Assembly: GCF_000739085.1 (NCBI RefSeq)
Contig: NZ_CP009110.1
Coordinates: forward strand, 5,952,001 to 6,016,000
Direction of reading: 5' to 3'
Source of the DNA: Amycolatopsis methanolica 239
GTDB lineage: Bacteria; Actinomycetota; Actinomycetes; Mycobacteriales; Pseudonocardiaceae
DNA: 64,000 nucleotides
Position numbers and translations under genes: made by a program. The notes beneath the pieces are model-generated. The model was not told the origin of the DNA, did no database searches, and saw only the letters and a program-made list of their open reading frames with translations. Shown here in pieces: positions 55,595 to 57,305 of this stretch. Within the stretch, counting starts at the first letter, position 1; every line of letters begins with the position of its first letter.

Positions 55595-55750
55595 TTGGGC
55601 AAGAAGGACGCGGACCCGCGCAAGGTCGTCCGCAAGCTCATGAAGGCGGGCAAGGTCAAGAAGAAGTGCTGCCGCTCGAAGCCCCGCTGCAAGAAGTGCC
55701 CGGTCCTCGCACTCCAGCGGGCGAAGACGGACGTCAAGAAGGCGGCCTAG
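55595..55750 (+). CDS. Small Cys/Lys-rich protein with CC-x5-C-x2-C motif
   Basis: A 51-residue basic protein starting at TTG (55595; GGAG lies 8 bases upstream; GTGs at 55586/55589 are alternatives). GKKDADPRKVVRKLMKAGK then VKKKCCRSKPRCKKCPVLAL gives a CC-x5-C-x2-C group suited to zinc or an iron-sulfur cluster. There is no signal peptide. Similar tiny proteins occur beside typA in actinobacteria as conserved hypotheticals. An iron box just upstream suggests iron-responsive expression, which would fit a metal-binding role. The 3' end overlaps the convergent YciI gene by 4 bp. Confidence 0.78.
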   Translation: MGKKDADPRKVVRKLMKAGKVKKKCCRSKPRCKKCPVLALQRAKTDVKKAA

Positions 55751-56046: not shown

Positions 56047-56193
56047 GCCGTCACGGTAGACCCGGCGAGGACCCCCGGGAAACAATTCTCAGCCATTTGC
56101 CAGTAATCTGTGCAACAGCGGTTCTACATTCCAAAGAATTGCTTTCCGAAAGGCAATGTGGATATTACCTTCGGGCGCTGCTACGCTGTCCGC

Positions 56194-56253
56194 GTGCGTA
56201 CGAACGTGAACTTCTGGTGGCCGCCGGCAGGCGGTCCCTCCGACGTGCGCTGA
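56194..56253 (+). CDS. Tryptophan-containing leader peptide of trpS
   Basis: A 19-codon ORF, GTG to TGA, encoding MRTNVNFWWPPAGGPSDVR with two adjacent Trp codons at 56215-56220. A leader with tandem codons for the amino acid handled by the downstream enzyme is the hallmark of ribosome-mediated attenuation. It is 86 bp upstream of a tryptophanyl-tRNA synthetase gene, and a terminator-like hairpin follows. Streptomyces coelicolor controls an auxiliary, indolmycin-resistant TrpRS gene in the same way. Confidence 0.85.
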   Translation: MRTNVNFWWPPAGGPSDVR

Positions 56254-56263
56254 AACCCACGAC

Positions 56264-56287
56264 AAGGCCGCCCGCGCAGGCGGCCTT
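56264..56287 (+). promoter_or_regulatory. Attenuator hairpin upstream of trpS
   Basis: A 9-bp stem AAGGCCGCC (56264-56272) with GGCGGCCTT (56279-56287) and a 6-base loop. An upstream hairpin CCGCC (56221-56225) with GGCGG (56230-56234) begins right after the Trp codons. A ribosome stalled there covers 56221-56225, freeing GGCGG to pair with CCGCC of the terminator arm (56268-56272), which would prevent termination. Confidence 0.78.
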
Positions 56288-56339
56288 CGTCGTTCCCGGG
56301 GCCGTGGCGGGGGTGGCCACCGACCCGAGGAAGCAACCG

Positions 56340-57305
56340 ATGCGAATTTCCGGGATCACCCCGTCCGGCCACACCCACCTCGGCAACCACCTGGGCGCGA
56401 TCCAGCGCTGGGCGACCGACGGCGGGCCGGACGACCTGTACTTCGTGTCCGACCTGCACGCCATGACGACCACGCACAACCCGGGCAAGCTGCGCGGCCG
56501 GACCAGCGAGATGCTCGCCATCCTGGTGGCGGCCGGAATCCCGGCCGAGCGTGTGTTCGTGCAGTCGGACCTGTCCCGCGAACTGGGCGCGCTGACCTGG
56601 ATCCTGGAGTGCACGTGCAGCTATGGCGAGGCCGCGCGGATGATCCAGTTCAAGGAGAAGGGCAGCGGCCAGCCCGGGGTGCGGCTGAGCCTGCTCACCT
56701 ACCCGGTGCTGATGGCCGCCGACATCCTGCTGCAGGGCGCGGCGGAAGTGCCGGTCGGTGAGGACCAGAACCAGCACGTGGAGCTGGCGCGGGCGCTGGC
56801 CAGGCGGTTCAACGGCACCTACGGCGAGGTGTTCACGGTGCCGCGGCCGGTGCTGCCGCCGACGGGCGCGCGGGTGCGGGACCTGAGCGACCCGGCGCGG
56901 AAGATGTCGAAGTCCGCGCGGGACGCGGCCGGGGTGGTGTTCGTGCTGGACGAGCCGGACCTGATCCGCCGCAAGGTGCGGCGCGCGGTCACCGACGGGT
57001 TCACCGGCGTCGAGTACGCGCCGGAAGAGCGTCCCGGGGTCGCGAACCTGCTGGAGATCCTGGCCGGCTGCCGGGGCGAGCGGCCTGCGGACGTGGCGGC
57101 GGAGTTCTCGTCCTACGGGGCGCTGAAGGAGGCCGTGGCGGAGGCGGTGGTTGAGACGCTGCGCCCGATCCGGGAGCGGACGCTGGAGCTGCTGGCGGAC
57201 CCGGCGGAGCTGGCGCGGATCCGCAAGGAGGGCGCGAGCCGGGCCGCCGAACGCGGCGAGCACCGCCTGACCTCGGCGATGCGGCTCATCGGCGCGGGCA
57301 TGTGA
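56340..57305 (+). CDS. trpS: Tryptophanyl-tRNA synthetase (probably auxiliary, attenuator-controlled)
   Basis: A 321-residue class I synthetase. The HIGH-type motif is HTHLGN (residues 11-16), the KMSKS motif is intact in DPARKMSKSARD (about 195), and DLYFVSDLHAMTTTHNP, CSYGEAARMIQFKEKGSGQPGVRLSLLTYPVLMAADILL and VGEDQNQHVELARALARRFN are diagnostic of TrpRS. It charges tRNA-Trp. ATG at 56340 is the start because homologues begin at MRISGITPSG; the frame is open upstream only through the leader. Such attenuated copies often give resistance to indolmycin-type inhibitors; whether a second TrpRS exists in the genome is unknown. Confidence 0.93.
   Translation: MRISGITPSGHTHLGNHLGAIQRWATDGGPDDLYFVSDLHAMTTTHNPGKLRGRTSEMLAILVAAGIPAERVFVQSDLSRELGALTWILECTCSYGEAARMIQFKEKGSGQPGVRLSLLTYPVLMAADILLQGAAEVPVGEDQNQHVELARALARRFNGTYGEVFTVPRPVLPPTGARVRDLSDPARKMSKSARDAAGVVFVLDEPDLIRRKVRRAVTDGFTGVEYAPEERPGVANLLEILAGCRGERPADVAAEFSSYGALKEAVAEAVVETLRPIRERTLELLADPAELARIRKEGASRAAERGEHRLTSAMRLIGAGM

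Follow-up and report, generated by a model that had tools for sequence, protein, structure and literature searches.

A predicted leaderless Trp-Trp leader as a very probable transcription attenuator of an accessory tryptophanyl-tRNA synthetase gene in Amycolatopsis methanolica

In work from 2008 and 2010, Vecchione and Sello reportedly described trpRS1 of Streptomyces coelicolor as the gene of an auxiliary, indolmycin-resistant tryptophanyl-tRNA synthetase (TrpRS) under ribosome-mediated attenuation, and the later study is said to have established this attenuation by experiment. The locus considered here lies in a window of 64,000 nucleotides (the whole stretch of DNA that was analysed) from Amycolatopsis methanolica 239. 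It resembles the S. coelicolor system, as reported, in placing a second TrpRS behind a Trp leader with a predicted regulatory role.

A second trpS behind a predicted attenuator is likewise found in S. avermitilis, where a classical attenuator was predicted for trpS2 in 2005; the passage concerned names the gene without giving its sequence or start site (PMC1262725). The trpL2-trpS leader of S. lividans (MMTRTCTQLWRAA) was recognised from RNA-seq; according to the relevant part of the report it is leaderless, has two hairpins and lacks a U-rich stretch (PMC8079986). The window shares with it a predicted leaderless Trp leader before trpS as well as the two hairpins, but its leader has a longer tail and carries two Trp codons (codons 8-9) in place of the single one that trpL2 has, at codon 10. 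The leader of trpE in S. lividans, trpL1, is also leaderless in the same part of that report, but carries WWW and controls a different gene (PMC8079986).

The kind of switch is already known from Streptomyces, and the window holds a well supported and well conserved further example. Its additions are a probable helix at the 5' end of the leader (P0), a fixed spacing, a transferable unit, and a hairpin over the ribosome-binding site of trpS. Within the literature collection searched, no report dealt with attenuation of an Amycolatopsis tryptophanyl-tRNA synthetase. Control of an auxiliary TrpRS by leaderless Trp attenuation, known but little sampled, would be extended from Streptomyces to the Pseudonocardiaceae, with the 80 relatives considered below and a spacing rule open to test by reporters. 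On present evidence, we hold it very probable that the window leader controls the accessory TrpRS gene by ribosome-mediated transcription attenuation of the leaderless type.

The leader and its conservation

The genome with the window comprises 7.24 Mb in one contig, and the -10 box, leader, helices and trpS described below are on the forward strand. The leader ORF, VRTNVNFWWPPAGGPSDVR, occupies 56194-56253 (19 codons and a stop, from GTG 56194-56196 to TGA 56251-56253) and is predicted to be leaderless; its codons 8-9 are the tandem Trp codons TGGTGG at 56215-56220. A -10 box of the TANNNT type, TACGCT, lies at 56182-56187, 6 nt 5' of the leader start codon, and 81 of 81 loci have a box of this type 6-7 nt before theirs. 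In S. lividans, -10 boxes are given as TAnnnT at a mean of 6.3 nt from the start site, in the portion of the source that treats them (PMC8079986). Because the 6-7 nt between box and start codon fit that mean, leaderless transcription of the window leader, from a start at or next to its start codon, is likely. A simple sigma-70 promoter scan gave no match at the window leader. Downstream, trpS (56340-57305, from ATG 56340) encodes an accessory tryptophanyl-tRNA synthetase of 321 aa, which scores 243 bits against TIGR00233, for which the cut-off is 177. The first-pass annotation had placed the leader, its Trp-Trp pair, the P1 hairpin and the terminator and had named the alternative GGCGG/CCGCC pairing, and the coordinates given there agree with the sequence. 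Also in this part of the window, the ORF at 55595-55750 (51 codons) is small, basic and Cys-rich and matches nothing in Pfam or NCBIfam.

Relatives were taken as the best 80 of 206 confirmed loci from a protein search of the genome collection; Amycolatopsis tucumanensis, at 98% protein identity, is the closest named relative among the matches listed. An upstream short ORF with WW is present in 76 of the 80 relatives. When the window is included, the succession of TANNNT, 6-7 nt, A/GTG and an in-frame Trp is found in 81/81 loci. This Trp is leader codon 8 in 78/81, the distance from the 5' end to the first Trp codon being 21 nt in 77/80, and Trp-Trp is present in 77/81 leaders. The four leaders that depart from WW (L036, L053, L078 and L082) retain the Trp of codon 8 and carry Gln or Arg in place of the second Trp, and single-Trp leaders keep the first Trp codon (4/81 loci here, 2/21 in other families). 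Over 101 loci the second codon is TGG in 95, while the corresponding value for the first, 101/101, is fixed by how the script locates that codon. Among more distant accessory copies of trpS in the window's family, a leader with Trp is present at 14/14 loci, with WW at 12.

A stricter pattern, WW within the first 12 codons, occurs in 76/81 loci and in 0/4050 dinucleotide shuffles. It was also met in 46 of 4050 random real stretches of 210 nt, which were drawn from the same loci with the leader not excluded, so that these may be the leader itself. The leader, with its promoter spacing and the position of its Trp, is beyond chance. Clades differ in where the frame ends 3' of Trp-Trp, although the RNA itself is kept, as would be expected if the helices outweigh the peptide in importance.

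Alignments of the 81 loci took in 55 in one case and 33 in another. One locus, L081, whose middle region was unparsed, is absent from the counts for stalling, the inner stem, the own-versus-cross tests, Trp spacing and the Shine-Dalgarno hairpin, for which 80/81 were used.

RNA helices and ribosome position

Directly 3' of the Trp codons lies the P1 hairpin (56221-56234), in which CCGCC 56221-56225 pairs with GGCGG 56230-56234. The terminator stem-loop (56264-56287) pairs AAGGCCGCC (56264-56272) with GGCGGCCTT (56279-56287), and folding lengthens it to about 56259-56293; the stem is perfect and the U-run 3' of it is interrupted (UUCGUCGUU). The antiterminator (56230-56272) pairs 56230-56236 with 56266-56272 around a core of GGCGG 56230-56234 with CCGCC 56268-56272, and holds an inner stem of 56244-56247 with 56258-56261. 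A simple terminator scan missed the window terminator. Over 80 loci, the 9 nt 3' of the terminator stem contain 5.2 T on average, with 5-6 T in 58. Folded as a single sequence, the leader region improves on its shuffles by only a modest margin (z -1.59), with 13 of 200 shuffles as good. Searched against Rfam, the window leader had no match at the gathering level, to T-box or any other leader; at E up to 5 there were eight weak matches to other families, all below gathering.

In 33 aligned loci, 96.4% of the cells of P1 and 100% of those of the terminator core are paired, with almost no variation, and both helices are beyond covariation testing because the sequence hardly varies. The antiterminator, in 33 aligned loci, is paired in 100% of the cells of its core helix and 72.1% of those of its inner helix. 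Its covariation score and its share of paired cells were each reached by 0/500 shuffles, and its cells changed on both sides by 17/500; two measures showed no excess over shuffles (pairs changed on both sides, 374/500; pair types, 359/500). The inner antiterminator stem has a mean pairing score of 11.26 vs 8.91 for shuffles and tops all 200 shuffled sets, with many individual loci not above their own shuffles.

A further helix, P0, which would close the leader, is probable from the fold and an own-versus-cross test. Its 5' arm, GCGUACG at 56196-56202, would pair with CGUGCGC at 56244-56250, of which 56244-56247 alternatively pair with 56258-56261 in the inner antiterminator stem; P0 would in this manner link the first codons of the leader to the conserved CUGUGCGC motif 3' of P1. 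The own-versus-cross test, whose controls leave some shared ancestry in, gave z -5.1 in 33 dereplicated Pseudonocardiaceae loci (reversed control -0.2), z -5.4 in two other families taken together (21 loci; control +0.9), z -3.3 in 19 Amycolatopsis (control +1.1), and z -5.4 in all 80 loci, where the reversed control stood at -2.05. In one register 78.4% of cells are paired, a share reached by 2/500 shuffles, and cells changed on both sides were reached by 5/500; slid by two columns, to the other register, P0 still pairs 72.7%. The covariation score of P0 was reached by 46/500 shuffles, its pairs changed on both sides by 396/500 and its pair types by 417/500.

Ribosome stalling was simulated by folding the RNA up to the terminator 5' arm with the ribosome footprint barred from pairing, which yields minimum-energy structures, not kinetics. 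With the ribosome masked at the first Trp codon (A site), the antiterminator formed in 80/80 loci of the family and 21/21 loci of two other families. It formed in 5/80 and 2/21, respectively, with no ribosome, when the P1 3' arm paired upstream in 75/80 and 19/21, and in 9/80 and 1/21 with a ribosome at the stop codon. Scanning the family from three codons before up to the first Trp codon released the antiterminator in 72, 79, 80 and 80 of 80 loci; a stall four codons before did so in 13/80, and one codon after, with the same footprint, in 0/80. The other families gave 20-21/21 from three codons before through the first Trp codon and were less position-specific: stalls four to eight codons upstream also released it in 7-12/21, and a stall one codon downstream in 3. 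When the downstream reach was varied over 8-15 nt, the effect of the first Trp codon persisted in at least 69/80 loci; the second Trp codon was effective at reaches of 8-12 nt. Stalling at the first agrees with this being the codon kept in single-Trp loci. As computed, mutually exclusive 1:2, 2:3 and 3:4 helices are selected by the position of the ribosome, clearly in the family and more weakly in the other families.

The observed anatomy and conservation, the mutually exclusive pairings and their dependence on stall position suggest how transcription start, leader translation, termination and induction may be connected. Transcription would begin at the leader start codon or immediately beside it, and a ribosome would load directly at the 5' end of the transcript. 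When charged tRNA-Trp is ample, this ribosome would pass both Trp codons and cover the P1 3' arm; with no ribosome, P1 and probably P0 would form. Either way the terminator 5' arm would be left free, the terminator would form and transcription would stop. A shortage of charged tRNA-Trp, caused by starvation for Trp or by an inhibitor of TrpRS, would stall the ribosome at codon 8, where it would mask the 5' arms of P0 and P1. This would leave GGCGG and CGUG to pair with the 5' arm of the terminator and the bases preceding it; no terminator would form, trpS would be transcribed, and the TrpRS made would restore charging. The initial proposal of a ribosome-mediated attenuator that reads Trp codons and controls trpS is strongly supported by conservation, the fixed Trp position, the exclusive helices and simulated stalling.

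The accessory synthetase and the purpose of its switch

The window trpS stands as a second trpS beside a housekeeping trpS in the same genome (G000:C1:809647, 45% identity to window trpS). Counted by hand, an accessory copy of at least 52% identity is present in 81/150 family genomes, and a second TrpRS match (E 1e-20) in 80/81 of the carriers; the exception, G148, is a genome 94% complete. In a search of the class, 25/394 genomes pass E 1e-90, and 20 of the 25 fall in one genus, which we infer from its leader to be Streptomyces. Leaders in that genus read MTTRTCTQLWWAA or near forms. The Streptomyces parallel drawn in the first-pass annotation holds in form: Streptomyces-like genomes carry a matching leaderless WW leader, and the trpS behind it falls within the 51-56% identity that the window TrpRS shows to class matches outside its family. 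Leaders were read at plus-strand loci for L084-L112 and on both strands from L113 on; among the 23 loci L113-L135, 21 were parsed (18 from the Streptomyces-like genus and 3 from another family). The two left out are L127, where a leader is visible, and L126, where the covariance model treated in the last section places an element upstream. Two TrpRS trees were made, of 73 selected rows and of 28 rows. The former separates the accessory rows from 7 housekeeping rows with 100/100 support, under a midpoint root, with housekeeping rows from Pseudonocardiaceae only and no named Streptomyces TrpRS.

DNA similarity between the window and four Pseudonocardia loci (L007, L009, L008 and L057) is confined to about 56174-57299, at 86-88% identity; this unit, some 1.13 kb long, begins just 5' of the -10 box and ends at the stop codon of trpS. 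Six Amycolatopsis loci compared have neighbouring genes in common with the window, while the Pseudonocardia loci present three contexts unlike the window's, two of these having flanks in common. Comparison of flanks of up to about 3 kb places the unit in at least four contexts. The accessory TrpRS of the Pseudonocardia loci is 86-90% identical to the window's vs 79-81% for L010, L011, L014 and L023. The order is reversed for the housekeeping TrpRS (73-75% vs 84-90% in the same comparison) and for TypA (71-72% vs 92-93%, one Pseudonocardia genome being without a match). This contrast, together with the differing contexts, indicates that the unit has moved between genera, more than once. Since unselected flanks decay, its sharp edges mark a conserved functional unit and not necessarily the exact ends of transfer.

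Other readings of the switch differ in how much weight they deserve. We give almost no credence to the reading that the leader is a short ORF that arose by chance, lying over the ordinary terminator of a transcript from upstream: hairpins are common at high G+C and the single-sequence z is modest, but promoter, start and Trp spacing are conserved in 81/81 loci against 0/4050 shuffles, the neighbouring YCII gene is on the other strand, and the comparative data contradict the reading. Control that is mainly translational, with a hairpin over the trpS Shine-Dalgarno as the switch, upstream hairpins acting on it and little true termination, is improbable. This hairpin (56294-56332, with the Shine-Dalgarno at about 56327-56331) is seen in the fold and conserved in Pseudonocardiaceae, with an own-versus-cross z of -5.8 in 53 dereplicated loci (control -1.8) and with three or all four Shine-Dalgarno bases paired in 39/52 loci, L012 being without a scorable Shine-Dalgarno. 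Predicted accessibility of the Shine-Dalgarno is also lower for trpS (0.268; 59/80 scorable) than for 107 other long ORFs picked mechanically from the same loci (0.381), and the U-run of the window is weak. Set against this, the 5-6 T past the stem are found in most loci (58/80), and the hairpin signal in other families is barely above its control (z -2.8 vs -2.2). Coupling of the hairpin to the attenuator, which was also considered, is unsupported, predicted accessibility being equal in the antiterminator and terminator states (0.278 vs 0.275; 52 loci).

Transcription attenuation remains our preferred reading of the leader, and the closer contest concerns what it serves. That the attenuator is real but answers to ordinary supply and demand for Trp-tRNA, the second TrpRS being a starvation enzyme and not a resistance enzyme, is quite possible, although we lean against it. 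What the sensor detects is charged tRNA-Trp and not a drug; like leaders precede anthranilate synthase-like genes in other actinobacteria; and the window keeps the residues aligned to Bacillus His43, Asp132 and Gln147. Weighing on the other side are the accessory distribution of the gene (81/150 and 80/81, as above), its movement between genera, and the precedent of S. griseus, which has two TrpRS, one of them indolmycin-resistant, according to the passage of a review that mentions them (PMC6804068). So does the residue aligned to Bacillus Gln9, a position that presumably bears on drug binding: it is Thr in the window and 34/34 relatives and Gln in 7/7 housekeeping rows. Among 17 rows of other families it is Lys in 15 and Thr in 2, and the 14 distant accessory rows have 9 Thr, 2 Arg, 1 gap and, as in the housekeeping rows, 2 Gln. 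Drug-inducible resistance is plausible from the accessory standing of this second TrpRS, the Thr at the Gln9 position and the transferability of the unit, and the enzyme would then be a drug-insensitive spare copy. If it is, the unit would amount to a compact module for inducible resistance that takes its own sensor along when it moves between genera. A fuller version, which we advance tentatively and consider unlikely as a whole, would see in these 1.13 kb a resistance cassette that is transferable and self-contained, with a leaderless sensor of tRNA charging, a P0 lock on the leader 5' end, and a second, hitherto undescribed translational control via the Shine-Dalgarno hairpin, perhaps as autoregulation by TrpRS.

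Wider kin of the leader

A covariance model of the leader (R1), whose filters may lose weak matches, recovered the leader in the window's genome at E 5.1e-14; the next match there had E 0.035, with nothing else below E 0.03. At E 0.01, R1 matched 93/150 family genomes and 54/197 class genomes. Part of these matches precede anthranilate synthase-like genes (L162-L170, L178-L181 and L184-L189, mostly, as judged by eye). Four of the anthranilate synthase-like proteins were compared with NCBIfam, with one above curated cut-offs and three matching below them. At L171-L177, which belong to two other genera of the window's family, the same leaderless WW attenuator (e.g. VRTRIGMWWAADRRP) stands before a TrpRS 31-34% identical to the window's. 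With R1 elements before both anthranilate synthase-like genes and distant TrpRS, one attenuator design thus serves non-orthologous Trp genes.
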